From NCBI GenBank assembly GCA_037893245.1, contig JBAIAA010000351.1, forward strand, positions 1 through 64,000: a stretch of 64,000 bases of DNA. Direction: 5' to 3'. Origin of the DNA: Crossaster papposus (Eukaryota; Echinodermata; Asteroidea; Velatida; Solasteridae). Below are positions 1 through 57,131 of the stretch, in pieces. Within the stretch, counting starts at the first letter, position 1; every line of letters begins with the position of its first letter. The translations under genes were made by a program, and so were the position numbers. The notes under the pieces were generated by a model. The model was given only the letters and a program-made list of their open reading frames with translations, had not been told where the DNA came from and searched no databases.

Positions 1-1628
1 ATGTAGATGTAGATGGTACCAAGGAAGTGTTTTCCAAGGTCCGCATACACTGTTAAGAGGGATACTGTAGTTCTGAAGATGTTTTTAGATTCGGCCATCA
101 GCCAGCTTTGCATTTTCACAATAACTGTTTCTTCCCAATGGCACATTGTATATTCTAGCTAATTTTGAATGTTATCACACTAACAACTGACAGGTATGGG
201 TGGGATCAAGTCAGCTAGTGAAACCATATATCAGGCCAAAAAAACCAAATAAATTAGTTTCTCATCCTCGCGCACATCCTTTTTTGCTGCTGCATCAAAA
301 CAATTTGTTTATATTTGTATTTGTTTCGCATCGTCACTTTTCTCCCGATCTTAATTGTTCTCGTTTGCATTTTTTTAGAAGAGTGAAGCCTTATTATTAT
401 CATATGACGCGACACTATACAGTGTGGCAGGCCTGGAATTACAATTACAATTTGTTTAGGGAAAGGCCACTTTGGCCTTGGAGTATTCAAAATTTGGGAG
501 GGCACCAAGGCCAGTAGGAAGGGCGCCAAGGCCAAAATTTGAAAATAAAAAGGGTATGTCGCTGTATATACCACTAAAATAACGAGACGAAGTCCGTGGA
601 CCCATTACCCCTATTTATTTCGCACACCGCTGATGCAGGCAGGTGAAAACTAAAGCAAAATACACAAAATAGTTATTATTAAGCATTATAATTTAAAGAA
701 ATACAAATGTGCAATAAAATAATTACATTAGGTTTGGAGAAAATTGGGCAGCACCTTGTCGGCAAAATCAGTTACAGAGGAGCAACAATCAATCAGTTAT
801 GAAAATAAAGAAACCCGTATATAAACTTACAATCGTTCCCGGGGTAAGGGATCGTCCGCACACACAGCGAGATAAACAGGAATTTACGGCGGCATTCTGG
901 GGTGCTGCACAAATAATAAATACACGTATATAATTCAACAAATACCACTATAATTCTAGTAATTTGCAATTACTAACCCAAACTAAGAATTTATATTTGT
1001 TTCCCCGACGCACCATGAACTATAAAGGGCGTTGGCTCTGAGGAATGTTCGGATATTTCCATTAAAAGGCTTATAAACTAGAAGGCAAACAATTTAACAG
1101 CAATATAAACCTTAAGATAAATGCTTCCATGTAAATTACATCTTCGGAAATAAACATGATATAAATCAAAGGTAAAAATACTTACAAATGGTTGACTACA
1201 GAAAGAACGAAGTGAGTTGGTTGGGAGCGTGAACGCAACTGACTCAATCCCCCCCCGCGCGCCTCGGTGGTTAAGTGGGGCAACCAGAAATTACGTAATT
1301 ACATACCAAACATGCTCAGACCTACGGCTTATGCAAATAAGAGAACAATCATTTAACAGATGGAAAAATACATAGCGGTGACGATAACAGGGTACGAAGG
1401 CCACTTAGTTATGAAAGTTATAAAACAAACTACAACCAACGGCGAACTACTTTGTTGATTCAACACTAAAACAGGCCTCTTTATTGAACAAGTTTCCAAG
1501 ATAATAACTATTGATCCGTTGAACATTGTTACTCTATTAAATTCTTGTAGTTTAATCCGAAAAGTTTTGGACGGTGAAGGGATTCATTCACTAAAAAAGT
1601 TTTTCTAGTCATGCGTTGCAACAATTCC
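1..1628. other. AT-rich non-coding stretch, no gene recognised
   Basis: I see no credible coding region here. The open frames at 200-574 are low-complexity, overlap on both strands and have no recognisable motif. The stretch holds A/T-rich DNA, a small inverted-repeat cluster near 472-535, and a C-run followed by GC-rich bases at about 1250-1262. It could be intergenic DNA or an intron of an upstream gene. The sequence gives no basis for choosing. Confidence 0.6.
472..535. repeat. Small inverted repeat with ccaaggcc motifs
   Basis: A 10 bp arm TTGGCCTTGG at 472-481 is matched exactly by its reverse complement CCAAGGCCAA at 526-535. A further direct CCAAGGCC lies at 505-512 inside the loop. 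The flanks also pair roughly (TTCAAAATTT on the left, AAAATTTGAAA on the right). This could be the end of an old foldback element or a simple hairpin. I see no target duplication. Confidence 0.45.
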
Positions 1629-1629
1629 A

Positions 1630-1671
1630 CCAGAAGAGGGCGTTCAAACAACAGAGAGCGCCCTCTGTTGG
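1630..1671. repeat. Short hairpin with agagggcg / cgccctct arms
   Basis: The arms CCAGAAGAGGGCG (1630-1642) and CGCCCTCTGTTGG (1659-1671) pair with two mismatches across 13 bp around a 16 bp loop. GCGCCCTCTGTTGG-like ends recur on many animal repeats, so this may be a remnant of a mobile-element terminus. That is inference. Nothing else of an element is visible. Confidence 0.4.
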
Positions 1672-1768
1672 TCAATGTTTTTATTTTAGACTGGTCCCTT
1701 GTTTAAAGACGTCGGGTGTTCGTGTACAACGCGAGCGGGTGCCGAGAGAGTCGCGAATGCGTTGAACG

Positions 1769-2087
1769 CACTGACCTCTATACATGGACAGATCATCATT
1801 GTTCTATTTTGAAGTCGGCATGCGGAGAAGTGCAACATGGCGGACCCACGACGTCACTCTGTGAGCCAATGAAATGTCTAGGTGTTGGTACGATACGTAT
1901 TACGTAATGTTTATAAATACAAAACGTACAGAGTAAATCCACTAACCTAGGCTCTACACTGGACATTTCATTGGCTCACAGCAGTGACGTCTCGGGTCCG
2001 CCATGTTGCACTTCCAGTTCGCGCCGACTTCAAGTGTTAGCACAGCAGAATATGGACAATGATCCGTCCAGGTGTAGAGGTCAGTGG
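1769..2087. repeat. Large imperfect inverted repeat (foldback) with CRE, CCAAT and YY1-like motifs in each arm
   Basis: The left arm (1769-1882) and right arm (1959-2087) are inverted copies, separated by about 75 bp. Matching blocks in order from the outside inward are CACTGACCTCTA, TTGAAGTCGGC, AAGTGCAACATGGCGGACCC, the core GACGTCACT, and TGTGAGCCAATGAAATGTC. The right arm has a roughly 13-15 bp insertion relative to the left. The loop contains the palindrome ATTACGTAAT. Each arm carries a CRE-like GACGTCA, a CCAAT box and a YY1-like ATGGCGG. It may be a foldback MITE or a duplicated, divergent promoter. No clean target duplication was found, so the class is unresolved. The open frames across it (1716-1907, 1954-2184) mirror one another because of the inverted repeat and are not genes. 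Confidence 0.75.
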
Positions 2088-2178
2088 TTGAACGTAAACA
2101 ATTTACGCTAGTGCAACTTCCTTTGACTCGTTCGAGCGGATTGCGCTGCACGTACAAACTTATCGCGGAAATTCCCAT

Positions 2179-2404
2179 ATGCAAATTAGGTGAACAGCGC
2201 CGCTCATTATGACGTCATCGTACGTTCTCGCTTTACGCGCGTCATCGCCTTCGGCCACTTCCGGGTAGGTACGGACTCGTTTCAGTTTAATGAATGAATC
2301 ATTATGCATCGGGTACTGCACATGCGTAGTGATGGTATGAGAAAAAGCTAAGATGGCCGCTGTCTAGTAGTGCTGAAAAAAGCTTCCGAATCGGTGGAGT
2401 TTGG
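2179..2404 (+). promoter_or_regulatory. Candidate TATA-less promoter and short non-coding first exon
   Basis: Several motifs typical of animal housekeeping promoters cluster here: octamer ATGCAAAT (2179-2186), full CRE TGACGTCA (2210-2217), ETS core CTTCCGG (2258-2264) and a YY1-type AAGATGGCCGC (2350-2360). I see no TATA box. A consensus donor follows, TTTGG|GTGAGT, with the GT at 2405-2406, so 2350-2404 could be the end of a first exon. The ATG inside the YY1 motif opens only a four-codon frame (MAAV, then stop), so coding would have to begin in a later exon. Orientation and position, about 1.2 kb upstream of the TRMO exon, make TRMO the obvious candidate target. This is inferred from motifs only; there is no transcript evidence. 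Confidence 0.45.
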
Positions 2405-2953
2405 GTGAGTTATTGACAGTTTAAAAACTTTTTGCGTCTTCCTTTTTTGGAACTCAAAGTTCAGAGAGTCCATATTTGTAATAATGTTATTCTTTCTCAC
2501 CAAATTTCTTTGAAAATCAAGCGATTTAGTTCCGAATAGTTCATTTGTTTAGCTGTCGAATGGTGTTACACACGTGGGTAATCGGATTGATAGTGCGATG
2601 GTCGCGAGCAATATGCATGGCCATTTTTAGATGAAACTCCCAAAATTTGCCAATAATTCTCAAAGGATCACGTGATAAACTACACGCGGCGTGTGAACGC
2701 ATCAAGTTACATCGATGCATTGTTATGGAAATTGAGCGGCGGCGCATCGTTAAATATAGAATGACTGGAGGGGAATGACCAGCAAATTGGCGGGACAATC
2801 TTACGTCACAAAAGTCACTGATAATTTTGGGCATCAAATGAGTGCAAGTGCGCAGGCGTGCAAATTCCCGCATGATTTATGGGACAGGTTTGTAAAACTA
2901 ACACAAGTAAATAACGCGCTGGAAAACTGGTGTCGATTTTCCTTGATTTGCAG

Positions 2954-3014
2954 GTCAAGAATTGATCGTGAATACCTTAGAAGTTCGTTAACTCAGCTTG
3001 GATACATATGGAAG
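2954..3014 (+). other. Weak candidate upstream exon of TRMO
   Basis: It is bounded by an acceptor-like GATTTGCAG ending at 2953 and a donor-like GGAAG|GTTATT at 3014/3015. The open frame reads about 20 residues, ending LTQLGYIWK. In TRMO proteins a segment resembling P-[IV]-G-Y-[IL] lies shortly before the conserved N-G-T-P-R-Q motif, so the GYI here is suggestive. It is too short to be convincing, and the donor is weak. Treat it as a hypothesis. Confidence 0.2.
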
Positions 3015-3394
3015 GTTATTTAGACGATTTGTGTGGATTTTGGCGACATTTTGAACCACATTCAAGACATAATCATTCGTCAATATTCTTCTGGCTCGGC
3101 CTCTAGTAGCGCAAGATAATGCCCAAATGTAAAAAAAGCGATAACTAGAAGCCAGTAACTCGGTCTACACCACACCGTGTTTTGTCGCACCGAAAAATAA
3201 CTAGCTATTTACTTTACAAAATAGGGTCTGGAGCTAAAATTACTAGCCCAAATCAATATATCTTGGTATCAGTTTTCTTGTAGAAAGATTCTCCATCCAT
3301 TGGTATAGGTAGTTTTGGCCTCATGGAAGTGGAAGTATGCTTGTTCGTTGAGATATTATGCTTGTTGGTTTTTTTGGGGGCCATCCTGTGTAAG

Positions 3395-3570
3395 TTTCTC
3401 TATACAAACACATCAAGCCAACGTCAAGCTCCCCAAAAATGTCCCCATCTTCCGCTTTTAAAAATAGTTAGGACGAGAAAAAAATTTTTATTTGGCCTAA
3501 CAGACCAGTTTTCACTGGTTGCGATGAGTTACCACTCAGCAATTCAGAATCAAGAACCATTGAGTTTTAG
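3395..3570 (+). pseudogene. Weak, possibly degenerate TRMO N-domain-like segment
   Basis: The frame is open throughout. It shows an order-preserved but faint resemblance to the TRMO segment that precedes the HKNG motif: an F..N...QRQAP..C stretch, then LKI, then RTRKKF, then GLTDQFSLV, with spacing close to the family (compare NGTPRQ..C, L-R/K-I, basic patch, GL.QFSHVW). The strongly conserved NGTPRQ is not intact, and the FSHVW position reads FSLVA. A good donor (TTTTAG|GTAAAA, 3570/3571) exists, but its phase does not join in frame with the exon at 3628. It could be a decayed exon, a badly modelled real exon, or chance. Confidence 0.2.
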
Positions 3571-3627
3571 GTAAAATAAGTCTGGGACTTCAATAATTGC
3601 GCCCCAAATTGTATGTGTAATTTGCAG

Positions 3628-3787
3628 GATACTATTCATCTCCACAAGAATGGTGATGGGAGGTTCACCAAGGCCAAAGTGAAGCCGCCTCGTTTAGACG
3701 GAGCCAAGGTTGGGGTTTTCGCCATCCGCAGTCCCCATCGACCCAATCCTATCGGCCTGACCTTAGCCAAGCTGGATAGAATCCAAG
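3628..3787 (+). CDS. TRMO: Internal exon of TRMO (tRNA N6-methyladenosine methyltransferase, TsaA/UPF0066 domain)
   Basis: TRMO uses S-adenosylmethionine to N6-methylate t6A37 of certain cytosolic tRNAs. This exon encodes 53 codons plus one base, with no stop, and covers the most conserved part of the beta-barrel TsaA/UPF0066 domain. HKNG is near residue 7, KAKVKPPRLDGAKVGVF follows, then the signature RSPHRPNPIGLTLAKL. The acceptor is TAATTTGCAG|GAT (AG at 3626-3627) and the donor is CCAAG|GTATTC (GT at 3788-3789). The exon starts in phase 0 and ends in phase 1. One oddity is FAIRSPHRPN, where the family normally has Thr before RSPHRPN (here Ile). Its last 54 bp are the founder of the satellite that follows. 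The remaining coding exons, including the rest of the domain downstream, are not in this window, so whether the gene is intact cannot be judged. It could be a functional gene with a giant intron or a 3'-truncated copy. Confidence 0.85.
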
Positions 3788-4003
3788 GTATTCATAACCC
3801 CATCGACCCAATCCTATCGGCCTGACCTAGTAGCTAAGCTGGATAGAATCCAAGGTATTCATAACTCCATCGACCCAATCCTATCGACCTGACCTAATAG
3901 CTAAGCTGAATAGAATCAACGGTATTCATAACCCCATTGACCCAATCCTACCGGCCTGACCTAATAGCTAAGCTGGATAGAATCCACGGTATTCATATAA
4001 TAA
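3734..4003 (+). repeat. Founder cluster: four tandem copies of the TRMO exon end plus splice donor
   Basis: The first copy is the genuine exon end (3734-3787) plus the first intronic bases. Three more copies follow, beginning at 3799, 3866 and 3933, at periods of 65, 67 and 67 bp. Each reads CCCAT(C/T)GACCCAATCCTA..GGCCTGACC..AGC.AAGCTGGATAGAATC, then a GGTATTCAT donor-like end. Copies 2-4 gained two bases (CCTTAGC becomes CCTARTAGC), so the reading frame is lost. The coding-like frames at 3613-3825 and 4995-5177 are echoes of this duplication. The cluster ends in an (ATA)n microsatellite. Confidence 0.92.
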
Positions 4004-4268
4004 TAATAATTGGGGAGGCTAATCATCCTTACTCGCAGCTGGTGTGCTGAATTGCGAAGGATGCAAGTGACACCCAATGACTGTTCATGTGTCACGTCAC
4101 ATTAAAGAACCATTTTTTCAAAAGAACCTAAAAACAAATGTAAACATTGGTTTTTATGTTGATTATTTCCTAACGTTTCCAACAATGTATAGTTTAGCAA
4201 ATCTACACAAACAGTGAACGAAACTTTCAATATGTACATTATGAACCTGACTTGGAGGCAAGCGCTTT
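3990..4268. repeat. First copy of the ~260 bp satellite linker, preceded by (TAA)n
   Basis: The segment runs from the ATAATAATAAT tract through TTGGGGAGGCTAATCATCC to GGCAAGCGCTTTACACACAAGCC. It is unrelated to the exon and is repeated in every later unit. It contains a hairpin-forming pair GTGACAC ... GTGTCAC and the CRE-like TCACGTCA. An acceptor-like TCCTTACTCGCAG|CTGG (later TTACTTGCAG|CTGG) is also present. The (TAA)n edge suggests either the tail of an old retroelement on the opposite strand or original TRMO intron DNA that was co-amplified. I cannot assign it to a known family. Confidence 0.8.
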
Positions 4269-7253
4269 ACACACAAGCCACCCAACCCAATCCTATCGGC
4301 TTGATCTGTTAGCTAAGCTTGATAGAATCCAAGGTATTATATTCCCATCGACCCAGTCCTATCGGCCTGACCTTAGCTAAGCTGGATAGAATCCAAGGTA
4401 TTCATATTCCCATCGACCCAATCCTACCGGCCTGACCTAATAGCTAAGCTTGATAGAATCCAAGGTATATCCCAATCGACCCAATCCTATCGGCCTGAGC
4501 TAATAGCTAAGCTGACTAGAATCAACGGTATTCATAACCCCATTGACCCAATCCTATCGGCCTGACCTAATAGCTAAGCTTGATAGAATCCAATGTATTC
4601 ATAACCCCATCGACCCAATCCTACCGGCCTGACCTAATAGCTAAGCTGGATAGAATCAACGGTATTCATATAATAATAATAATAATTGGGGAGGCTAATC
4701 ATCCTTACTCGCAGCTGGTGTGCTGAATTGCGAAGGATGCAAGTGACACCCACTGACTGTTCATGTGTCACGTCACATTAAAGAACCATTTTTTCAAAAG
4801 AACCTAAAAACAAATGTAAACATTGGTTTTTATGTTGATTATTTCCTAACGTTTCCAAAAATGTATAGTTTAGCAAATCTACACAAACAGTGAACGAAAC
4901 TTTCAATATGTACATTATGAACCTGACTTGGAGGCAAGCGCTTTACACACAAGCCACCCAACCCAATCCTATCGGTTTGATCTGTTAGCTAAGCTTGATA
5001 GAATCCAAGGTATTCATATTCCCATCGACCCAATCCTACCGGCCTGACCTAATAGCTAAGCTGGATAGAATCCTAGGTATAACCCAATCGACCCAATCCT
5101 ATCGGCCTGAGCTAATGGCTAAGCTGAATAGAATCAACGGTATTCATAACCCCATCGACCCAATCCTACCGGCCTGACCTAATAGCTAAGCTGGATAGAA
5201 TCCACGGTATTCATATAATAATAATAATTGGGGAGGCTAATCATCCTTACTTGCAGCTGGTGTGCTGAATTGCGAAGGATGCAAGTGACACCCAATGACT
5301 TTCCATGTGTCACGTCACATTAATGAACCATTTTTTTCAAAAAAACCTAAAAACAAATGTAAACATTGGTTTTTATGTTGAGTATTTCCTAACGTTTCCA
5401 AAAATGTATTGTTTAGCAAATCTACACAAACAGTGAACGAAACTTTCAATATGTACATTATGAACCTGACTTGGAGGCAAGGGCTTTACACACAAGCCAC
5501 GCAACCAATCCTATCGGCTTGATCTGTTAGCTAAGCTTGATAGAATCCAAGGTATTATATTCCCATCGACCCAGTCCTATCGGCCTGACCTTAGCTAAGC
5601 TGGATAGAATCCAAGGTATTCATATTTCCATCAACCCAATCCTACCGGCCTGACCTAATAGCTAAGCTGGATAGAATCCAAGGTATATCCCAATCGACCC
5701 AATCCTATCGGCCTGAGCTAATGGCTAAGCTGAATAGAATCAACGGTATTCATAACCCCATTGACCCAATCCTATCGGCCTGACCTAATAGCTAAGCTTG
5801 ATAGAATCCATGGTATTCATAACCCCATCGACCCAATCCTACCGGCCTGACCTAATAGCTAAGCTGGATAGAATCCACGGTATTCATATAATAATAATAA
5901 TAATTGGGGAGGCTAATCATCCTTACTCGCAGCTGGTGTGCTGAATTGCGAAGGATGCAAGTGACACCCAATGACTGTTCATGTGTCACGTCACATTAAA
6001 GAACCATTTTTTCAAAAGAACCTAAAAACAAATGTAAACATTGGTTTTTATGTTGATTATTTTCTAACGTTTCCAAAAATGTATAGTTTAGCAAATCTAC
6101 ACAAACAGTGAACGAAACTTTCAATATGTACATTATGAACCTGACTTGGAGGCAAGCGCTTTACACAGAAGCCACCCAACCCAATCCTATCGGCTTGATC
6201 TGTTAGCTAAGCTTGATAGAATCCAAGGTATTATATTCCCATCGACCCAGTCCTATCGGCCTGACCTTAGCTAAGCTGGATAGAATCCAAGGTATTCATA
6301 TTCCCATCGACCCAATCCTACCGGCCTGACCTAATAGCTAAGCTGGATAGAATCCAAGGTATATCCCAATCGACCCAATCCTATCGGCCTGAGCTAATGG
6401 CTAAGCTAAATAGAATCAACGGTATTCATAACCCCATTGACCCAATCCTATCGGCCTGACCTAATAGCTAAGCTTGATAGAATCCAATGTATTCATAACC
6501 CCATCGACCCAATCCTACCGGCCTGACCTAATAGCTAAGCTGGATAGAATCCACGGTATTCATATAATAATAATAATTGGGGAGGCTAATCATCCTTACT
6601 TGCAGCTGGTGTGCTGAATTGCGAAGGATGCAAGTGACACCCAATGACTGTTCATGTGTCACGTCACATTAAAGAACCATTTTTTCAAAAGAACCTAAAA
6701 ACAAATGTAAACATTGGTTTTTATGTTGATTATTTCCTAACGTTTCCAAAAATGTATAGTTTAGCAAATCTACACAAACAGTGAACGAAACTTTCAATAT
6801 GTACATTATGAACCTGACTTGGAGGCAAGCGTTTTACACACAAGCCACCCAACCCAATCCTATCGGCTTGATCTGTTAGCTAAGCTTGATAGAATCCAAG
6901 GTATTATATTCCCATCGACCCAGTCCTATCGGCCTGACCTTAGCTAAGCTGGATAGAATCCAAGGTATTCATATTCCCATCGACCCAATCCTACCGGCCT
7001 GACCTAATAGCTAAGCTGGATAGAATCCAAGGTATATCCCAATCGACCCAATCCTATCGGCCTGAGCTAATGGCTAAGCTGAATAGAATCCATGGTATTC
7101 ATAACCCCATTGACCCAATCCTATCGGCCTGACCTAATAGCTAAGCTTGATAGAATCCATGGTATTCATAACCCCATCGACCCAATCCTACCGGCCTGAC
7201 CTAATAGCTAAGCTGGATAGAATCCACGGTATTCATATAATAATAATAATAAT
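4011..7253. repeat. Proximal, older satellite units of 676/542/676/673/676 bp
   Basis: Unit starts, taken at the T of TGGGGAGGCT, fall at 4011, 4687, 5229, 5905, 6578 and 7254. Each unit is a linker followed by exon-derived subunits: six in the 673-676 bp units and four in the 542 bp unit. Each lost pair of subunits accounts for 134 bp, consistent with unequal exchange in register with the 67 bp subunit. These units are more divergent than the distal ones: GGCAAGCGC against GGCAAGGGC, CTCGCAG against CTTGCAG, CCCAACCCAATCC against CCCAACCAATCC, and variable (TAA)n length. They look like the oldest surviving part of the array, next to the founder exon. Confidence 0.93.
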
Positions 7254-10200
7254 TGGGGAGGCTAATCATCCTTACTCGCAGCTGGTGTGCTGAATTGCGA
7301 AGGATGCAAGTGACACCCAATGACTGTTCATGTGTCACGTCACATTAAAGAACTATTTTTTCAAAAGAACCTAAAAACAAATGTAAACATTGGTTTTTAT
7401 ATTGATTATTTCCTAACGTTTCCAAAAATGTATAGTTTAGCAAATCTACACAAACAGTGAACGAAACTTTCAATATGTACATTATGAACCTGACTTGGAG
7501 GCAAGCGCTTTACACAGAAGCCACCCAACCCAATCCTATCGGCTTGATCTGTTAGCTAAGCTTGATAGAATCCAAGGTATTATATTCCCATCGACCCAGT
7601 CCTATCGGCCTGACCTTAGCTAAGCTGGATAGAATCCAAGGTATTCATATTCCCATCGACCCAATCCTACCGGCCTGACCTAATAGCTAAGCTGTATAGA
7701 ATCCACGGTATTCATATAATAATAATAATTGGGGAGGCTAATCATCCTTACTTGCAGCTGGTGTGCTGAATTGCGAAGGATGCAAGTGACACCCAATGAC
7801 TGTTCATGTGTCACGTCACATTAAAGAACCATTTTTTCAAAAGAACCTAAAAACAAATGTAAACATTGGTTTTTATGTTGATTATTTCCTAACGTTTCCA
7901 AAAATGTATAGTTTAGCAAATCTACACAAACAGTGAACGAAACTTTCAATATGTACATTATGAACCTGACTTGGAGGCAAGGGCTTTACACACAAGCCAC
8001 CCAACCAATCCTATCGGCTTGATCTGTTAGCTAAGCTTGATAGAATCCAAGGTATTATATTCCCATCGACCCAGTCCTATCGGCCTGACCTTAGCTAAGC
8101 TGGATAGAATCCAAGGTATTCATATTCCCATCGACCCAATCCTACCGGCCTGACCTAATAGCTAAGCTGGATAGAATCCACGGTATTCATATAATAATAA
8201 TAATTGGGGAGGCTAATCATCCTTACTTGCAGCTGGTGTGCTGAATTGCGAAGGATGCAAGTGACACCCAATGACTGTTCATGTGTCACGTCACATTAAA
8301 GAACCATTTTTTCAAAAGAACCTAAAAACAAATGTAAACATTGGTTTTTATGTTGATTATTTCCTAACGTTTCCAAAAATGTATAGTTTAGCAAATCTAC
8401 ACAAACAGTGAACGAAACTTTCAATATGTACATTATGAACCTGACTTGGAGGCAAGGGCTTTACACACAAGCCACCCAACCAATCCTATCGGCTTGATCT
8501 GTTAGCTAAGCTTGATAGAATCCAAGGTATTATATTCCCATCGACCCAGTCCTATCGGCCTGACCTTAGCAGCTGGATAGAATCCAAGGTATTCATATTC
8601 CCATCGACCCAATCCTACCGGCCTGACCTAATAGCTAAGCTGGATAGAATCCACGGTATTCATATAATAATAATAATTGGGGAGGCTAATCATCCTTACT
8701 TGCAGCTGGTGTGCTGAATTGCGAAAGATGCAAGTGACACCCAATGATTGTTCATGTGTCACGTCACATTAAAGAACCATTTTTTCAAAAGAACCTAAAA
8801 ACAAATGTAAACATTGGTTTTTATGTTGATTATTTCCTAACGTTTCCAAAAATGTATAGTTTAGCAAATCTACACAAACAGTGAACGAAACTTTCAATAT
8901 GTACATTATGAACCTGACTTGGAGGCAAGGGCTTTACACACAAGCCACCCAACCAATCCTATCGGCTTGATCTGTTAGCTAAGCTTGATAGAATCCAAGG
9001 TATTATATTCCCATCGACCCAGTCCTATCGGCCTGACCTTAGCTAAGCTGGATAGAATCCAAGGTATTCATATTCCCATCGACCCAATCCTACCGGCCTG
9101 ACCTAATAGCTAAGCTGGATAGAATCCACGGTATTCATATAATAATAATAATTGGGGAGGCTAATCATCCTTACTTGCAGCTGGTGTGCTGAATTGCGAA
9201 GGATGCAAGTGACACCCAATGACTGTTCATGTGTCACGTCACATTAAAGAACCATTTTTTCAAAAGAACCTAAAAACAAATGTAAACATTGGTTTTTATG
9301 TTGATTATTTCCTAACGTTTCCAAAAATGTATAGTTTAGCAAATCTACACAAACAGTGAACGAAACTTTCAATATGTACATTATGAACCTGACTTGGAGG
9401 CAAGGGCTTTACACACAAGCCACCCAACCAATCCTATCGGCTTGATCTGTTAGCTAAGCTTGATAGAATCCAAGGTATTATATTCCCATCGACCCAGTCC
9501 TATCGGCCTGACCTTAGCTAAGCTGGATAGAATCCAAGGTATTCATATTCCCATCGACCCAATCCTACCGGCCTGACCTAATAGCTAAGCTGGATAGAAT
9601 CCACGGTATTCATATAATAATAATAATTGGGGAGGCTAATCATCCTTACTTGCAGCTGGTGTGCTGAATTGCGAAGGATGCAAGTGACACCTAATGACTG
9701 TTCATGTGTCACGTCACATTAAAGAACCATTTTTTCAAAAGAACCTAAAAACAAATGTAAACATTGGTTTTTATGTTGATTATTTCCTAACGTTTCCAAA
9801 AATGTATAGTTTAGCAAATCTACACAAACAGTGAACGAAACTTTCAATATGTACATTATGAACCTGACTTGGAGGCAAGGGCTTTACACACAAGCCACCC
9901 AACCAATCCTATCGGCTTGATCTGTTAGCTAAGCTTGATAGAATCCAAGGTATTATATTCCCATCGACCCAGTCCTATCGGCCTGACCTTAGCTAAGCTG
10001 GATAGAATCCAAGGTATTCATATTCCCATCGACCCAATCCTACCGGCCTGACCTAATAGCTAAGCTGGATAGAATCCACGGTATTCATATAATAATAATA
10101 ATTGGGGAGGCTAATCATCCTTACTTGCAGCTGGTGTGCTGAATTGCGAAGGATGCAAGTGACACCCAATGACTGTTCATGTGTCACGTCACATTAAAGA

Positions 10201-33154: not shown

Positions 33155-33640
33155 TAGTCCTGCAGATTAATAACATTTTTCACCACAATATTGCATTTGA
33201 TGATACAAGCACCAAAATTGGCATAACTACTCTTTTGGGGTCACTGTACACAAAAACCCCGTTAGCCAAATTAAAATCCAATATGGCGGCCATTTTTTTC
33301 AAGATGGCCGCCACTAAATGGTAACACTTAATGTTACATTGGATTAATTGGTCATACAAGCACCAACAGTTGCAATTATCCACCAAATGTACCCCTTATC
33401 AATTCAAAAATAGAAACAACTTAAACATTCAAGATGGCGGCCATTTTGTCAAGATGGCGGCCATGTTTTCCAGGATTGCTTTCATTGAATGACATACATT
33501 GGTTATTTTACAAAATAAACCAAATGGTCATACAATAAAGCTGCAATTTACCTCTCGTTGGTCATTTATAATTAACAAATCATAAATCACTGGAAATCAA
33601 AGATGGCCGCCATTTTTCAAAATGGCTGCCAACACGTACA
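33155..33640 (+). repeat. Left composite inverted arm of the 3.7 kb element
   Basis: The outer 158 bp (33155-33312) is the terminal inverted repeat proper. It shares CCTGCAGATTA, GATACAAGCACCAAAATTGG, ACAAAAACCCCGTTAGCC and AAATTAAAATCCA with the right end. The arm then continues as two further diverged modules of about 150 bp. Each carries paired YY1-like ATGGCGGCCAT / AAGATGGCCGCC motifs (near 33283/33300, 33431/33452 and 33600/33620) and usually a 'catacaagcacc' or 'catacaa' block. The terminal repeat appears to have been tandemly multiplied within the arm. Confidence 0.75.
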
Positions 33641-33930
33641 TACAATACCAATTTATAACAATAGCGGGTGTCAGTAAAGAAGAAAATTGTTACAAGAATT
33701 GCGACCTGACTTGAGATTCTTACCATTACTGTTGTAATTGCTTTCCAAGATTAACTCTTTATTTTGTATTTGCGTTACTGAACATTTTGAAGGCATACTT
33801 AGCGTGCCTTTGATGCTTACAGTCTGTGTTTTAACATCCCATGCATAGAGCAAATCAATCTCAGTCCTGGTTGAGCTTGTAACCAAGGTATTATCCTCCA
33901 ACTAGTTATATTGGTTGAGCTTGCAACCAA
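33641..33930. other. Internal spacer of the 3.7 kb element
   Basis: Between the left arm and the nested element I see no conserved coding segment. The minus-strand frame 33671-33901 is short and unrecognised. The right part begins the CCAAT minisatellite (a TTGGTTGAGCTTGTAACCAA block near 33868-33886 and another at 33911-33930). Confidence 0.5.
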
Positions 33931-33947
33931 CCCACTGGGCATTTTAC

Positions 33948-34870
33948 CCGATATTACCCGGGTTGTAACCAGTAATAACGCTAGTTATTACTGGTTATTA
34001 TTGGGTAGCATACCGATATTACACGGGCTGTAACGAGTAATAACTCGTGGTTATTACTGGGTAATAAATAACGGGAAAATAGTAGACCAATATTTCCCTG
34101 TTATTACCACCCGATATTACCCCATTTACCCACTGTTACCAGGGAGAATGTTTCCGATATTTCCGGCATTGCATTGTTATTACCACCCGATAGAATGTAA
34201 TTGTTATTTGTTATTGTTATTTCCACCCGATATTTCACCCTTTACCTATTATTATTACCCAATAAAATGTAATCGTTATTTACCGTTATTTCTGGCATTG
34301 CATTATATATCACCCGATATTACCCAATAGTACCAGGAAGAATGTTACCGATATTTCTGGCATTGTACTGTTATTACCACCCGATATTACCCAATTGGTT
34401 AATTATATTGGTTAATACTAATATTACGATACTACCGGAATAATATTACAATATATACACATTATAAACATCAATGACTCTTCTGAGCTTGCCACTGCTA
34501 CAATCTTAGCAAGTACTTAAACGCTATATATGTGCCCAATATCACCGCCTCTCTATAATCACAGTTTGCAATAAATTTTTTGTTAATTTATTTGTGTGTT
34601 AGCTTTTTGGCAAATTTGTTCCTTTGAGACTTGGAGTAAATAAATATTACACAATTATCTCTACGAAAACACCCTAAACGTATCGCTATTACGCAAAACA
34701 TAACGTTCATGTAGAAAAAGTGACACAAATGTTTCACCAAAGTTTATCACCCACTTGGGGTCAACATGTAAATTGAGGTCACCCGATATTACCCCATTTA
34801 CCCAATATTATCAGGGAGAATGTAACTAATATTCCTGGCATTGCCGTGTTATTACCACCTGATATTACCC
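33948..34870. repeat. Degenerate minisatellite of CCCGATATTACCC / GGGAGAATGT modules
   Basis: Within the nested element a module recurs: CCCGATATTACCCCATTTACCC, then TACCAGGGAGAATGT, then GATATTTCTGGCATTGCA, then TGTTATTACCA. Copies or partial copies lie near 33948, 34113, 34315-34390 and 34783-34870. The first 150 bp also contain mutually inverted GTAATAAC and GTTATTAC runs that could fold extensively. The frame at 34148-34330 is a product of this repetition. Confidence 0.65.
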
Positions 34871-34950
34871 TATTTACCAAATATTACCTAGGAGAATGTA
34901 ACAATATTTGGACTTGGACATTTTTCTGTGATTGCTATAATTTTACAGTT

Positions 34951-35240
34951 ATTACTCAAGTTCCCAATGTAATGACCAATTCAAGCCTTCCACCATTACC
35001 CACATTACCTGTATTATATTGTTGTTACTCGGTAAAATGTAGGTTTCAACAGGGTAATAACAGTAATATTTGAACTTGACAATTTTGCTGGAATCGCTAC
35101 TAATTTTACTGTTATTACTCAAGTTCCTAATGTTATAACCAATTAATTTCTTTTACCATTACCCACATTACCTGTATTATCCTGTTGTTACTCGGTAAAA
35201 TGTTTGTTTCAACAGGGTAATAACGGTTATATTTGGACTT
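34951..35240. repeat. 163 bp tandem duplication inside the nested element
   Basis: ATTACTCAAGTTCC at 34951 recurs at 35114. Both are followed by CAATGTAATGACCAATT-like sequence, ACCATTACCCACATTACCTG, TGTTGTTACTCGGTAAAATG, and TTTCAACAGGGTAATAAC. The second copy is incomplete at its right end. It overlaps the frame 34846-35073, which is not a gene. Confidence 0.75.
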
Positions 35241-35500
35241 TGAAATTTGGTAGAGCGGTGCACCATTTTTCAAGAGTTTTGTTATCAGATACAGATCCTG
35301 TCGGTCTCAAGGATCAATTATATCCAATCCTTATATTAAAAAAACTAATATTAAGGAATTTATAACAATTTAATTATCACAAAGGTAATATCATTTGGGT
35401 AATAACTCGGTAATATGGGTAATATTTAGACTTAGTCAAATTTTGGGGTGATATTACCGGTAATATCGGTAACCGGTAACAAATTGCCCAGTGGGAAGGT

Positions 35501-35690
35501 CCCAACCAATATATTGGTCATTCATAACCAATGTTGGTTGTCCTTTAACCAGTCATATTGGTTGAGCTTGCAACCAAGTTATCAACCAATCTAATGGTTA
35601 TTCATAACCAATATGTTGGTTGTCCTTCAACCAGTCATATTGGTTGAGCTTGTAACCAATGTATTAACCAATCTATTGGTTATTCATAAT
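35501..35690. repeat. ~82 bp CCAAT-rich minisatellite (ATTGGTTGAGCTTGCAACCAA)
   Basis: Units read AACCAGTCATATTGGTTGAGC, TTGCAACCAAGTTATCAACC, AATCTAATGGTTATTCATAACC, AATATGTTGGTTGTCC. About two and a half units lie here, and the interrupted first unit lies left of the nested element (33868-33930). Each unit has several inverted ATTGGTT / AACCAAT pairs, so single strands can fold. Related TTGGTT-rich sequence continues to about 36290. Confidence 0.75.
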
Positions 35691-36359
35691 GTAGGAAATG
35701 TACCTACAGCAACTGACCAATCAGAAGTGAGAAAATTTGTTTTGACAATAGTCGACCATAATATGTAATTATTCAAACGATTCCATGATTGAATTTATAT
35801 GTTTGTGCTAACATAGTGAAAAATTGACATTAAATTTCATACTGTTGACATTATTCATAAGTAATATTAGCTGTGACTTCGTCGTGGACAAAAAATCGAA
35901 CTATAAAACTAACAACGGCAGTAGCTAAGTGTGTAGTAAGTGGTCAGTAGCTAATATCTAATAGGAATAGGTTATTATTGTCTGTATGCATAATTGCAAT
36001 GTGTAATAAGTAATAAGGTATTATTTCATTACGTAATTTGTCCACGTTATGTAATTGGTTGTGTGGGAACCTTTGAATTAAATATTGTATTGGTTGGTGT
36101 TATGCAAATTGTTTGGTTGGTGTTATGCAAATTAGTTGCGTGTTGACCAATATGAATATGCAGCCCTACTATTATGTATTGGTTAGTGCTATAACCAATA
36201 CAAATTACCAATACAAATTGGTTGGAGTCCATTGTGGATTGGTTAAATTAACCAACATTGCATTCGTTATTTTCAACCAATCTGTTTTTAGAGTGTGTTG
36301 TATGTCTTTGTACCAGATATGTTACGATTTGTGTGTCACTTTTCGTAACATATAGGCTG
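35691..36359. other. Internal AT-rich part of the 3.7 kb element
   Basis: This segment is non-coding, with scattered ATTGGTT/AACCAAT copies between 36050 and 36290 and a short duplication TTGGTTGGTGTTATGCAAATT (two copies within 36090-36133). No transposase-related frame was recognised. Confidence 0.55.
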
Positions 36360-36838
36360 AGTCATCTTGTAGCGGCCATCTTTAAAAATGTTAGCCATCT
36401 TAAATTACCAAGTGGTTGACAATTTTAGCATAATATTGGATTCAAATGGAGATTAAATGCCCATTTTGGTCCTTGTATTACTGTTTGATCCTTGGTAACA
36501 CTACTACTAGCCATTCAGTGGCGACCATTTTTGGAAAATGGCGGCCATCTTGAATTTTCAAGTGCCTAATATACTGTTTTGGATATGCCAACAACAGGGA
36601 GACCAAACAGATGTTAAATGCCAAGTTTTGTGCTTGTATTGCCATTCTATCCATCTGTACATCAATATTTTCGGTGATATTTGGCCTTCATTGGCGGCCA
36701 TTTTCAAAAATGGCGGCCATCTTGGATTTTAATTTGGCTAACGGGGTTTTTGTGTAAAGTGACCCAAAATGAGCATGTGTGCCAATTTTGGTGCTTGTAT
36801 CACTAAATGCAATATTATTGTAGTAATCTGCAGGACTA
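36360..36838 (-). repeat. Right composite inverted arm of the 3.7 kb element
   Basis: Read on the minus strand, it starts TAGTCCTGCAGATTA and follows the left arm closely through 36693. It then shows two more modules with paired GGCGGCC motifs near 36521/36538 and 36370/36388, and blocks resembling 'tacaagcaccaaaattgg'. The module number and spacing mirror the left arm. The frames at 36113-36355 and 36538-36732 fall in this element and have no recognisable protein features. Confidence 0.72.
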
Positions 36839-39167
36839 TTTACACACAAGCCACCCAACCAATCCTATCGGCTTGATCTGTTAGCTAAGCTTGATAGAAT
36901 CCAAGGTTTTATATTCCCATCGACCCAGTCCTATCGGCCTGACCTTAGCAGCTGGATAGAATCCAAGGTATTCATATTCCCATCGACCCAATCCTACCGG
37001 CCTGACCTAATAGCTAAGCTGGATAGAATCCACGGTATTCATATAATAATAATAATTGGGGAGGCTAATCATCCTTACTTGCAGCTGGTGTGCTGAATTG
37101 CGAAGGATGCAAGTGACACCCAATGACTGTTCATGTGTCACGTCACATTAAAGAACCATTTTTTCAAAAGAACCTAAAAACAAATGTAAACATTGGTTTT
37201 TATGTTGATTATTTCCTAACGTTTCCAAAAATGTATAGTTTAGCAAATCTACACAAACAGTGAACGAAACTTTCAATATGTACATTATGAACCTGACTTG
37301 GAGGCAAGGGCTTTACACACAAGCCACCCAACCAATCCTATCGGCTTGATCTGTTAGCTAAGCTTGATAGAATCCAAGGTATTATATTCCCATCGACCCA
37401 GTCCTATCGGCCTGACCTTAGCTAAGCTGGATAGAATCCAAGGTATTCATATTCCCATCGACCCAATCCTACCGGCCTGACCTAATACCGATAGCTAAGC
37501 TGGATAGAATCCACGGTATTCATATAATAATAATAATTGGGGAGGCTAATCATCCTTACTTGCAGCTGGTGTGCTGAATTGCGAAGGATGCAAGTGACAC
37601 CCAATGACTGTTCATGTGTCACGTCACATTAAAGAACCATTTTTTCAAAAGAACCTAAAAACAAATGTAAACATTGGTTTTTATGTTGATTATTTCCTAA
37701 CGTTTCCAAAAATGTATAGTTTAGCAAATCTACACAAACAGTGAACGAAACTTTCAATATGTACATTATGAACCTGACTTGGAGGCAAGGGCTTTACACA
37801 CAAGCCACCCAACCAATCCTATCGGCTTGATCTGTTAGCTAAGCTTGATAGAATCCAAGGTATTATATTCCCATCGACCCAGTCCTATCGGCCTGACCTT
37901 AGCTAAGCTGGATAGAATCCAAGGTATTCATATTCCCATCGACCCAATCCTACCGGCCTGACCTAATAGCTAAGCTGGATAGAATCCACGGTATTCATAT
38001 AATAATAATAATTGGGGAGGCTAATCATCCTTACTTGCAGCTGGTGTGCTGAATTGCGAAGGATGCAAGTGACACCCAATGACTGTTCATGTGTCACGTC
38101 ACATTAAAGAACCATTTTTTCAAAAGAACCTAAAAACAAATGTAAACATTGGTTTTTATGTTGATTATTTCCTAACGTTTCCAAAAATGTATAGTTTAGC
38201 AAATCTACACAAACAGTGAACGAAACTTTCAATATGTACATTATGAACCTGACTTGGAGGCAAGGGCTTTACACACAAGCCACCCAACCAATCCTATCGG
38301 CTTGATCTGTTAGCTAAGCTTGATAGAATCCAAGGTATTATATTCCCATCGACCCAGTCCTATCGGCCTGACCTTAGCTAAGCTGGATAGAATCCAAGGT
38401 ATTCATATTCTCATCGACCCAATCCTACCGGCCTGACCTAATAGCTAAGCTGGATAGAATCCACGGTATTCATATAATAATAATAATTGGGGAGGCTAAT
38501 CATCCTTACTTGCAGCTGGTGTGCTGAATTGCGAAGGATGCAAGTGACACCCAATGACTGTTCATGTGTCACGTCACATTAAAGAACCATTTTTTCAAAA
38601 GAACCTAAAAACAAATGTAAACATTGGTTTTTATGTTGATTATTTCCTAACGTTTCCAAAAATGTATAGTTTAGCAAATCTACACAAACAGTGAACGAAA
38701 CTTTCAATATGTACATTATGAACCTGACTTGGAGGCAAGGGCTTTACACACAAGCCACCCAACCAATCCTATCGGCTTGATCTGTTAGCTAAGCTTGATA
38801 GAATCCAAGGTATTATATTCCCATCGACCCAGTCCTATCGGCCTGACCTTAGCTAAGCTGGATAGAATCCAAGGTATTCATATTCCCATCGACCCAATCC
38901 TACCGGCCTGACCTAATAGCTAAGCTGGATAGAATCCACGGTATTCATATAATAATAATAATTGGGGAGGCTAATCATCCTTACTTGCAGCTGGTGTGCT
39001 GAATTGCGAAGGATGCAAGTGACACCCAATGACTGTTCATGTGTCACGTCACATTAAAGAACCATTTTTTCAAAAGAACCTAAAAACAAATGTAAACATT
39101 GGTTTTTATGTTGATTATTTCCTAACGTTTCCAAAAATGTATAGTTTAGCAAATCTACACAAACAGT

Positions 39168-42100
39168 AAACGAAACTTTCAATATGTACATTATGAACCT
39201 GACTTGGAGGCAAGGGCTTTACACACAAGCCACCCAACCAATCCTATCGGCTTGATCTGTTAGCTAAGCTTGATAGAATCCAAGGTATTATATTCCCATC
39301 GACCCAGTCCTATCGGCCTGACCTTAGCTAAGCTGGATAGAATCCAAGGTATTCATATTCCCATCGACCCAATCCTACCGGCCTGACCTAATAGCTAAGC
39401 TGGATAGAATCCACGGTATTCATAAAATAATAATAATTGGGGAGGCTAATCATCCTTACTTGCAGCTGGTGTGCTGAATTGCGAAGGATGCAAGTGACAC
39501 CCAATGACTGTTCATGTGTCACGTCACATTAAAGAACCATTTTTTCAAAAGAACCTAAAAACAAATGTAAACATTGGTTTTTATGTTGATTATTTCCTAA
39601 CGTTTCCAAAAATGTATAGTTTAGCAAATCTACACAAACAGTGAACGAAACTTTCAATATGTACATTATGAACCTGACTTGGAGGCAAGGGCTTTACACA
39701 CAAGCCACCCAACCAATCCTATCGGCTTGATCTGTTAGCTAAGCTTGATAGAATCCAAGGTATTATATTCCCATCGACCCAGTCCTATCGGCCTGACCTT
39801 AGCTAAGCTGGATAGAATCCAAGGTATTCATATTCCCATCGACCCAATCCTACCGGCCTGACCTAATAGCTAAGCTGGATAGAATCCACGGTATTCATAT
39901 AATAATAATAATTGGGGAGGCTAATCATCCTTACTTGCAGCTGGTGTGCTGAATTGCGAAGGATGCAAGTGACACCCAATGACTGTTCATGTGTCACGTC
40001 ACATTAAAGAACCATTTTTTCAAAAGAACCTAAAAACAAATGTAAACATTGGTTTTTATGTTGATTATTTCTTAACGTTTCCAAAAATGTATAGTTTAGC
40101 AAATCTACACAAACAGTGAACGAAACTTTCAATACGCACATTATGAACCTGACTTGGAGGCAAGGGCTTTACACACAAGCCACCCAACCAATCCTATCGG
40201 CTTGATCTGTTAGCTAAGCTTGATAGAATCCAAGGTATTATATTCCCATCGACCCAGTCCTATCGGCCTGACCTTAGCTAAGCTGGATAGAATCCAAGGT
40301 ATTCATATTCCCATCGACCCAATCCTACCGGCCTGACCTAATAGCTAAGCTGGATAGAATCCACGGTATTCATATAATAATAATAATTGGGGAGGCTAAT
40401 CATCCTTACTTGCAGCTGGTGTGCTGAATTGCGAAGGATGCAAGTGACACCCAATGACTGTTCATGTGTCACGTCACATTAAAGAACCATTTTTTCAAAA
40501 GAACCTAAAAACAAATGTAAACATTGGTTTTTATGTTGATTATTTCCTAACGTTTCCAAAAATGTATAGTTTAGCAAATCTACACAAACAGTGAACGAAA
40601 CTTTCAATATGTACATTATGAACCTGACTTGGAGGCAAGGGCTTTACACACAAGCCACCCAACCAATCCTATCGGCTTGATCTGTTAGCTAAGCTTGATA
40701 GAATCCAAGGTATTATATTCCCATCGACCCAGTCCTATCGGCCTGACCTTAGCAGCTGGATAGAATCCAAGGTATTCATATTCCCATCGACCCAATCCTA
40801 CCGGCCTGACCTAATAGCTAAGCTGGATAGAATCCACGGTATTCATATAATAATAATAATTGGGGAGGCTAATCATCCTTACTTGCAGCTGGTGTGCTGA
40901 ATTGCGAAGGATGCAAGTGACACCCAATGACTGTTCATGTGTCACGTCACATTAAAGAACCATTTTTTCAAAAGAACCTAAAAACAAATGTAAACATTGG
41001 TTTTTATGTTGATTATTTCCTAACGTTTCCAAAAATGTATAGTTTAGCAAATCTACACAAACAGTGAACGAAACTTTCAATATGTACATTATGAACCTGA
41101 CTTGGAGGCAAGGGCTTTACACACAAGCCACCCAACCAATCCTATCGGCTTGATCTGTTAGCTAAGCTTGATAGAATCCAAGGTATTATATTCCCATCGA
41201 CCCAGTCCTATCGGCCTGACCTTAGCTAAGCTGGATAGAATCCAAGGTATTCATATTCCCATCGACCCAATCCTACCGGCCTGACCTAATAGCTAAGCTG
41301 GATAGAATCCACGGTATTCATATAATAATAATAATTGGGGAGGCTAATCATCCTTACTTGCAGCTGGTGTGCTGAATTGCGAAGGATGCAAGTGACACCC
41401 AATGACTGTTCATGTGTCACGTCACATTAAAGAACCATTTTTTCAAAAGAACCTAAAAACAAATGTAAACATTGGTTTTTATGTTGATTATTTCCTAACG
41501 TTTCCAAAAATGTATAGTTTAGCAAATCTACACAAACAGTGAACGAAACTTTCAATATGTACATTATGAACCTGACTTGGAGGCAAGGGCTTTACACACA
41601 AGCCACCCAACCAATCCTATCGGCTTGATCTGTTAGCTAAGCTTGATAGAATCCAAGGTATTATATTCCCATCGACCCAGTCCTATCGGCCTGACCTTAG
41701 CTAAGCTGGATAGAATCCAAGGTATTCATATTCCCATCGACCCAATCCTACCGGCCTGACCTAATAGCTAAGCTGGATAGAATCCACGGTATTCATATAA
41801 TAATAATAATTGGGGAGGCTAATCATCCTTACTTGCAGCTGGTGTGCTGAATTGCGAAGGATGCAAGTGACACCCAATGACTGTTCATGTGTCACGTCAC
41901 ATTAAAGAACCATTTTTTCAAAAGAACCTAAAAACAAATGTAAACATTGGTTTTTATGTTGATTATTTCCTAACGTTTCCAAAAATGTATAGTTTAGCAA
42001 ATCTACACAAACAGTGAACGAAACTTTCAATATGTACATTATGAACCTGACTTGGAGGCAAGGGCTTTACACACAAGCCACCCAACCAATCCTATCGGCT

Positions 42101-45100
42101 TGATCTGTTAGCTAAGCTTGATAGAATCCAAGGTATTATATTCCCATCGACCCAGTCCTATCGGCCTGACCTTAGCTAAGCTGGATAGAATCCAAGGTAT
42201 TCATATTCTCATCGACCCAATCCTACCGGCCTGACCTAATAGCTAAGCTGGATAGAATCCACGGTATTCATATAATAATAATAATTGGGGAGGCTAATCA
42301 TCCTTACTTGCAGCTGGTGTGCTGAATTGCGAAGGATGCAAGTGACACCCAATGACTGTTCATGTGTCACGTCACATTAAAGAACCATTTTTTCAAAAGA
42401 ACCTAAAAACAAATGTAAACATTGGTTTTTATGTTGATTATTTCCTAACGTTTCCAAAAATGTATAGTTTAGCAAATCTACACAAACAGTGAACGAAACT
42501 TTCAATATGTACATTATGAACCTGACTTGGAGGCAAGGGCTTTACACACAAGCCACCCAACCAATCCTATCGGCTTGATCTGTTAGCTAAGCTTGATAGA
42601 ATCCAAGGTATTATATTCCCATCGACCCAGTCCTATCGGCCTGACCTTAGCTAAGCTGGATAGAATCCAAGGTATTCATATTCCCATCGACCCAATCCTA
42701 CCGGCCTGACCTAATAGCTAAGCTGGATAGAATCCACGGTATTCATATAATAATAATAATTGGGGAGGCTAATCATCCTTACTTGCAGCTGGTGTGCTGA
42801 ATTGCGAAGGATGCAAGTGACACCCAATGACTGTTCATGTGTCACGTCACATTAAAGAACCATTTTTTCAAAAGAACCTAAAAACAAATGTAAACATTGG
42901 TTTTTATGTTGATTATTTCCTAACGTTTCCAAAAATGTATAGTTTAGCAAATCTACACAAACAGTGAACGAAACTTTCAATATGTACATTATGAACCTGA
43001 CTTGGAGGCAAGGGCTTTACACACAAGCCACCCAACCAATCCTATCGGCTTGATCTGTTAGCTAAGCTTGATAGAATCCAAGGTATTATATTCCCATCGA
43101 CCCAGTCCTATCGGCCTGACCTTAGCTAAGCTGGATAGAATCCAAGGTATTCATATTCCCATCGACCCAATCCTACCGGCCTGACCTAATAGCTAAGCTG
43201 GATAGAATCCACGGTATTCATATAATAATAATAATTGGGGAGGCTAATCATCCTTACTTGCAGCTGGTGTGCTGAATTGCGAAGGATGCAAGTGACACCC
43301 AATGACTGTTCATGTGTCACGTCACATTAAAGAACCATTTTTTCAAAAGAACCTAAAAACAAATGTAAACATTGGTTTTTATGTTGATTATTTCCTAACG
43401 TTTCCAAAAATGTATAGTTTAGCAAATCTACACAAACAGTGAACGAAACTTTCAATATGTACATTATGAACCTGACTTGGAGGCAAGGGCTTTACACACA
43501 AGCCACCCAACCAATCCTATCGGCTTGATCTGTTAGCTAAGCTTGATAGAATCCAAGGTATTATATTCCCATCGACCCAGTCCTATCGGCCTGACCTTAG
43601 CAGCTGGATAGAATCCAAGGTATTCATATTCCCATCGACCCAATCCTACCGGCCTGACCTAATAGCTAAGCTGGATAGAATCCACGGTATTCATATAATA
43701 ATAATAATTGGGGAGGCTAATCATCCTTACTTGCAGCTGGTGTGCTGAATTGCGAAGGATGCAAGTGACACCCAATGACTGTTCATGTGTCACGTCACAT
43801 TAAAGAACCATTTTTTCAAAAGAACCTAAAAACAAATGTAAACATTGGTTTTTATGTTGATTATTTCCTAACGTTTCCAAAAATGTATAGTTTAGCAAAT
43901 CTACACAAACAGTGAACGAAACTTTCAATATGTACATTATGAACCTGACTTGGAGGCAAGGGCTTTACACACAAGCCACCCAACCAATCCTATCGGCTTG
44001 ATCTGTTAGCTAAGCTTGATAGAATCCAAGGTATTATATTCCCATCGACCCAGTCCTATCGGCCTGACCTTAGCTAAGCTGGATAGAATCCAAGGTATTC
44101 ATATTCCCATCGACCCAATCCTACCGGCCTGACCTAATAGCTAAGCTGGATAGAATCCACGGTATTCATATAATAATAATAATTGGGGAGGCTAATCATC
44201 CTTACTTGCAGCTGGTGTGCTGAATTGCGAAGGATGCAAGTGACACCCAATGACTGTTCATGTGTCACGTCACATTAAAGAACCATTTTTTCAAAAGAAC
44301 CTAAAAACAAATGTAAACATTGGTTTTTATGTTGATTATTTCCTAACGTTTCCAAAAATGTATAGTTTAGCAAATCTACACAAACAGTGAACGAAACTTT
44401 CAATATGTACATTATGAACCTGACTTGGAGGCAAGGGCTTTACACACAAGCCACCCAACCAATCCTATCGGCTTGATCTGTTAGCTAAGCTTGATAGAAT
44501 CCAAGGTATTATATTCCCATCGACCCAGTCCTATCGGCCTGACCTTAGCTAAGCTGGATAGAATCCAAGGTATTCATATTCCCATCGACCCAATCCTACC
44601 GGCCTGACCTAATAGCTAAGCTGGATAGAATCCACGGTATTCATATAATAATAATAATTGGGGAGGCTAATCATCCTTACTTGCAGCTGGTGTGCTGAAT
44701 TGCGAAGGATGCAAGTGACACCCAATGACTGTTCATGTGTCACGTCACATTAAAGAACCATTTTTTCAAAAGAACCTAAAAACAAATGTAAACATTGGTT
44801 TTTATGTTGATTATTTCCTAACGTTTCCAAAAATGTATAGTTTAGCAAATCTACACAAACAGTGAACGAAACTTTCAATATGTACATTATGAACCTGACT
44901 TGGAGGCAAGGGCTTTACACACAAGCCACCCAACCAATCCTATCGGCTTGATCTGTTAGCTAAGCTTGATAGAATCCAAGGTATTATATTCCCATCGACC
45001 CAGTCCTATCGGCCTGACCTTAGCTAAGCTGGATAGAATCCAAGGTATTCATATTCTCATCGACCCAATCCTACCGGCCTGACCTAATAGCTAAGCTGGA

Positions 45101-57100: not shown

Positions 57101-57131
57101 ATCGACCCAGTCCTATCGGCCTGACCTTAGC
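39168..57131. repeat. Higher-order block duplications in the right array (offsets 9969 and ~6.4 kb)
   Basis: Linked rare variants recur. CAGTAAACG: 39168, 49137 and 55548. CATAAAATAA: 39425, 49394 and 55805. TTTCTTAACG: 40072 and 50041. A GCACATT change: 40137 and 50106. The AGCAGCTGG deletion: 40751 and 50720. The first offset is 9969 bp (21 units minus three 2 bp deletions). The second is 6411 bp (13 units minus 2 bp plus 238 bp of MITE insertion). In the third copy the TTTCTTAACG unit is missing and the deletion marker comes one unit early (56656), indicating loss of a single unit. Confidence 0.88.
53776..54009. mobile_element. piggyBac-like MITE, 234 bp, in one satellite unit
   Basis: The satellite sequence CACATTAAAGAACC is interrupted. 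The left side reads CACATTAA|CCAGTTCGCGCCGG and the right side CCGGCGCGAACTGG|TTAAAGAACC. That gives perfect 14 bp inverted termini and a duplicated TTAA, the target choice of piggyBac-superfamily elements. A TA duplication with 16 bp termini (mariner-like) explains the same bases, because TTAA is palindromic. Inside, each end has its own duplicated subterminal block: CGGGATTATTTTAAC and CGGGATTATTTTTAAC on the left, and two GTTTAT..CGTCATCCG on the right. There is no coding sequence. Only one unit carries it, so it is younger than the local amplification. Confidence 0.85.

Follow-up and report, generated by a model that had tools for sequence, protein, structure and literature searches.

A protein-coding exon of TRMO, a tRNA-methylase gene, has very probably given birth to a satellite in the genome of Crossaster papposus. 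The window considered in this study is the first 64,000 nucleotides of contig C351 (C351:1-64000), and the genome searched amounts to 1.02 Gb. An initial annotation of the window had derived the core of the satellite from the end of a TRMO exon and the adjoining splice donor, and this derivation is upheld, with intact exons and short intronic arrays surviving in the genome.

The origins of satellites are mostly guessed, the seed being gone before the array is seen. Here, a single genome still contains intact exons, starter arrays of four and about 20 copies, a spacer-free head and finished arrays, which allows each step of the birth to be tested. I will refer to the exon copies that stand at the beginning of arrays as heads. 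The birth can be followed stepwise from the surviving exon copies, the starter repeats and about 40 broken heads.

Layout of the array in the window

The window begins with DNA copied from the TRMO intron upstream of the exon (positions 1 to 428, forward strand, 97.7% identical to C217:1857591-1858019). There follows an insertion (429 to 3178) that neither of the gene copies has at this place and that L033, a type-B head, also lacks there; the corresponding site of C116 bears an insertion that is shorter and similar in part. Within the insertion, at 1770 to 2090, a stretch of about 110 bp and its reverse complement form a foldback pair, as judged by eye. The 3' end of the intron (3179 to 3627, forward strand; 93.5% identical to C217 over 3179 to 3998) leads into the exon at 3628 to 3787, which is bounded by an acceptor AG at 3626-3627 and a donor GT at 3788-3789. 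It is a TRMO pseudo-exon of type A, on the forward strand and 160 bp in length, one base shorter than the 161 bp of both gene copies.

The last 55 bases of the exon and the first 10 of the intron (GTATTCATAA) make up a unit equivalent to the founder of the repeat (3733 to 3797). From it a run of cores, mostly 63 to 67 bp and joined with a spacer in composite units, extends to position 64000, and so the tandem repeat does begin, as first proposed, with the end of the exon and the start of the intron. Three tandem cores (u1 to u3; 3798 to 3997), the first of which is identical to copy 1 of C116 and differs at two positions from copy 1 of C217, are followed by the first spacer, of 287 bp with (TAA)n at one end (3998 to 4284), by early composite units (4278 to 7237), four with six cores (a to f) and one with four, and by homogenised units, mostly of 475 bp and consisting of cores a, b and f plus spacer (7254 to 33154). 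Units mostly of 475 bp resume at 36839 to 53774 and again at 54009 to 64000, and the cores and spacers from the founder-equivalent unit on lie on the forward strand. The satellite had been said to fill the rest of the window. It does reach the end, and this long head-to-tail array continues to C351:113,209 (five of five probes at 72 to 110 kb fell in satellite), but it is broken in two places by inserted elements. The first of these, of 3,684 bp (33155 to 36838), has inverted ends TAGTCCTGCAGATTA and an apparent TTT target duplication (by eye), and some of its tracts abound in ATGGCGGCCAT-like and ACCAAT-like motifs. The second, of 234 bp (53775 to 54008), has inverted ends CCAGTTCGCGCCGG and TTAA on both sides, and I take it to be a piggyBac-like MITE.

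A motif script counted 363 cores in the window, including that of the exon, and 117 spacers. The 116 spacer-to-spacer intervals are 475 bp in 92 cases, 473 bp in 12, 481 bp in four and 676 bp in three, with five others. Units of 460 to 490 bp number 109 and fall into 25 distinct sequences, differing on average by 1.94 per pair and least at a lag of 18 units; homogenisation is evident in the 55 of the 109 that are identical, and higher-order organisation in the composites of 673 to 676 bp and 475 bp. Along the window the composites shift from mostly six-core to three-core, and I read the 475-bp unit as a six-core unit that lacks cores c, d and e.

In ungapped comparison with the last 54 bases of the exon, 99 positions in the array match at 52 of 54, the level of similarity originally reported, and three at 51 of 54. 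The best match in the 3.6-kb flank is 27 of 54, which excludes a chance resemblance of cores to exon. The cores carry stops and indels, and the intact frame in each unit that would mark a gene-bearing macrosatellite is absent: the longest start-codon frame in the 475-bp unit examined has 46 amino acids, comes from the spacer, and found no protein relative. A search of window positions 1 to 10000, spacer included, against Rfam returned nothing. By eye, the spacer is possibly an inverted SINE-like retroposon; a tRNA-derived SINE, suggested by the same visual impression, was set aside when Rfam gave no match.

Intact and disabled copies of the TRMO exon

The frame of the window exon matches the Pfam family TrmO_N above its cut-off (E 2.6e-14) and the NCBIfam family tRNA_TsaA with E 1.6e-11 and 44.5 bits, below the cut-off of 93.25, and it aligns with four TrmO/UPF0066 structures (bacterial or archaeal TrmO). 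Among the matches listed, 18 of 18 predicted-protein relatives from other sources have TrmO_N. The presence of the domain in these proteins and the bacterial or archaeal structures argue that the exon is ancestral, and the claim that it is a conserved coding exon is borne out. The opposite order, in which the satellite came first and the exon took sequence from it by exonisation or conversion, would fit the precise boundary common to the exon end and the cores. It is contradicted, however, by the conservation of the exon outside this genome, where relatives of TrmO and the bacterial protein have kept the segment HRPNPIGL, and by the stops and indels of the cores, and I find it scarcely credible.

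The exon came first, but the founder is not the exon copy in the window, as had been supposed. Alignment with 13 of the 18 TRMO-like fragments and with the two gene copies shows that one base is missing after ILFI in the assembled sequence, and the resulting frameshift rules this exon out as founder; it is a disabled copy, and the intact ones are at C217 and C162. The deletion is common to 20 of 20 type-A copies. Given this deletion and the absence of a next exon at the window in the genome family search, the window exon is not counted as part of a TRMO gene. That search gave 44 matches, comprising 42 copies of the window's exon type and two of the next exon, the latter found only beside the intact copies. 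The 42 divide into the two intact exons, 20 of type A and 20 with an in-frame stop (two stops in one case); in all eight stop-bearing copies that were read, out of the 20, CAT TGA replaces HR. No match in the search covered profile positions 1 to 37, and thus upstream TRMO exons were not seen. A 62-bp query found at least 40 full-length matches in the genome at 97 to 100% identity, two of them the genes, with 40 of 69 candidates scored. Four of the 40 (C603:277379, C603:282936, C246:3232742 and C116:1636951) are absent from the exons of the family search.

C217 and C162 have what a TRMO gene should have at this place, an intact exon in a conserved frame with the following exon behind it. The exon of the gene copies reads ILFIFHKNG...LAKLDRIQ, and that of C217 joins G|NTLHLSGVDIIDGTPVLDIKPYVPSYD in phase. 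The two copies may be alleles or paralogues, and bases 3734 to 3795 of the founder-equivalent unit are identical in both and in the window. In both gene introns, cores stand directly after the exon with no spacer between them. C217 has about 20 within 1.3 kb, the next exon lying 1.9 kb on, and C162 has four decayed cores, the last cut short; the spacer was not found in the whole of the C217 intron nor in the parts of the C162 intron examined. The statement that the satellite adjoins its parent exon therefore holds for these short arrays and fails for the window, where the neighbouring exon is a disabled copy. The C217 intron contains 14 further AAGGTATT donors downstream of the true donor, and read-through to any of them meets an in-frame stop, always the same codon, which makes this gene a natural test of splice-site choice.

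It is also conceivable that a processed or moved TRMO fragment founded the array at another place and that recombination then brought it to the window exon copy, as copies on many contigs might suggest. I consider this very unlikely, because the heads carry intron DNA with an acceptor, and so are not processed, and because the gene introns already have spacer-free cores right behind the exon.

Descent of the heads and spread of the array

A tree was constructed from 595 bp of flank plus exon in 30 rows (18 distinct), including 28 of the 40 disabled heads and rooted on C162. C217 branches after C162, and next to it the 28 disabled heads are united in a single clade (87/87), which splits into group B (eight heads, with C116 at the base; 92/95) and group A (20 heads; 94/94), though the support values are moderate and the bootstrap had yet to converge. 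Over the same flank and exon, the window is 96.7% identical to C217 and 93.7% to C162. The tree of cores (67 columns) is mostly unresolved, with one of 37 inner branches starred. C116 has a type-B head followed, over the 1.5 kb read, by cores only, with a period of about 520 bp over about two copies; spacer units are present at the end of that contig. By its exon C116 belongs with B, but it has in common with A an insertion site that is missing in the B head L033, and so the A and B lineages have recombined.

The order of units along the window, from founder through duplicates and older units to amplified ones, had been read as a direct record of the birth. That reading must be abandoned. The head is itself a copy: a stretch of 1,663 bp, starting at the exon, recurs without a difference at C351:277631 and at C351:362818, so the gradient at the left edge was copied along with it (four other heads compared with the window align in part, at 95 to 96%). 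The closest sequence to subunit b is a core within the C116 array (two differences), as against four differences from the exon unit, five from window copy 1 and four from C217 core 9, and the closeness of b to the exon is therefore no sign of a first duplicate.

Upstream homology to C217 starts at 1857046 in one A head and at 1856870 in one B head. Just upstream of where the homology of amplified heads begins, C217:1852138-1857137 contains open frames (about positions 3846 to 4655 of that stretch) that look by eye like a Tc1/mariner transposase, judging from a motif. At the other edge of the array, C351:113207-122028 corresponds, in inverted orientation, to C217:1840324 down to 1832500, the matching pieces being mostly 80 to 96% identical, and the source of this flank lies 18 to 26 kb upstream of the C217 gene exon. 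Both edges thus come from one C217 neighbourhood about 26 kb wide. Most probes between this right-hand block and the next heads, a region partly read, had no match to the C217 stretch compared. C351:129743-130093 contains a piece with 82 to 90% similarity, in both orientations, to the part of the TRMO intron that immediately precedes the next exon (C217:1860299-1860548); it is either an intron remnant or a dispersed repeat.

These flanks bear on another possibility, that the exon end was picked up and dispersed by a transposable element containing tandem repeats of its own. The (TAA)n end of the spacer, with its look of an inverted retroposon by eye, and the insertion of elements into the array would be in keeping with capture. 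Against it are the spacer-free tandem cores of C162, of C217 and of the portion of C116 that was read, and the long flanks, derived in part from around the gene, that recur with the array. Capture by an element is very improbable.

As to the spread of the exon-derived repeat, array and flank recur together on C351 and on other contigs. C351 has heads at 3634, 182554, 277631, 362818, 489864, 615435, 743093 and 923081, 85 to 180 kb apart, and of 20 probes along it eight are satellite, seven forward and one, at 1,000,000, inverted. A 400-bp piece beyond the array has at least 40 full-length matches, including itself and comprising all those scored among 2731 candidates; C217:1833914 and C185:2004781 are two of the 40. 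For a 1-kb piece lying 5' of a B head, 19 full-length copies at 97 to 100% were counted, the piece itself being one. An exact 50-mer of the spacer occurs 108 times in the window and 2001 times in the genome, the latter a lower bound on the number of units. The initial annotation had asked whether the repeat is specific to its locus. It is not: the 40 disabled heads, the matches of the 62-bp query and the spacer 50-mers place arrays on many contigs. Exact patterns from the satellite were found in neither of two other collections, of viral and of genome contigs (0 and 0), from which near records may be left out.

The assembly evidently breaks in this satellite, nine of 13 end-probed contigs having at least one probed end in it, and the mega-units of array plus flank might accordingly be an artefact, haplotypes or collapsed repeats set end to end. 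I strongly doubt this, since the spacings differ, the heads differ in type and in the layout behind the exon, and eight of them lie on one 1.08-Mb contig.

A subtelomeric location is disfavoured by the TTAGGG pair, found in none of 40 probes (19 contig ends), and by mixed orientation, C116, C246 and parts of C377 and C351 differing. TTAGGGx6 occurs in the genome 17946 times forward and 22005 times reverse, the listed places including two separate positions each on C5, C7 and C11. A tandem repeat of about 86 bp shares contigs with the TRMO satellite (C351:1040000 and the ends of C589 and C267). It is possibly the main (peri)centromeric satellite, and its presence on shared contigs is at most suggestive of a heterochromatic or centromeric location for the TRMO satellite. 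The end of C351 (1079000-1080575) differs from the other stretches that were read in containing a long palindrome, recognised by eye, with CTAGCCCGTTCATTTGTTCCGCG at its borders.

A proposed route and related systems

Birth from the TRMO exon would have proceeded in four steps. In the first, the last 55 bp of the exon and the first 10 bp of the intron would have been duplicated in tandem within the gene and would have grown by slippage or unequal exchange into a short intronic array, the state now seen at C162 and C217. In the second, a copy of the 5' part of the intron, the exon and the early array would have lost its link to the downstream exon and come to adjoin, in inverted orientation, DNA from 18 to 26 kb upstream, a junction that is observed once and whose formation I infer; the exon would have decayed in the two lineages, A and B. 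In the third, the spacer of about 287 bp would have entered the array, composite units of 673 to 676 bp and then of 475 bp being amplified and homogenised. In the fourth, array and flank would have been amplified as mega-units of 85 to 180 kb (the spacing on C351). None of these steps would need a function, and the amplification was probably neutral or selfish.

A wider scenario may be offered tentatively, as one that is more likely wrong than right: that a young pericentromeric satellite common to several chromosomes stems from a coding exon. The exon-end repeat, amplified with tens of kb of flank of which some came from around its gene, would have become one of the chromosome-structural repeats next to an older satellite of about 86 bp, and the gene itself would go on splicing past the 14 look-alike donors in its intron.

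The review PMC5615363 names rDNA spacers and transposable elements as seeds of satellites, and a figure legend in a 2019 review (PMC6947457) states that the reverse of a passage from transposable element through satellite to coding sequence is not proved. In such satellites, as described in both papers, a pre-existing sequence was likewise duplicated in tandem, formed into higher-order units and homogenised; the seed here differs in being the 3' end of a coding exon with its splice donor, and in that intact exons and starter arrays persist. Among the titles and abstract beginnings listed from the open-licence literature searched, no satellite seeded by a coding exon was found.

Some other systems are similar in part. 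Macrosatellites of the D4Z4/DUX4 type also have tandem units with gene sequence at more than one place, but every D4Z4 unit retains a complete reading frame, whereas the cores here keep at most 55 exon bases, with stops. Stellate and Suppressor of Stellate of Drosophila are likewise tandem arrays descended from a protein-coding gene; Stellate, however, repeats gene-sized units, and the repeat here is a fragment shorter than an exon. The arrays of C217 and C162 are of the kind known as intronic minisatellites (VNTRs), from which the present case differs in that the repeat left the gene, to form an array of about 110 kb on C351 and more arrays on many contigs.
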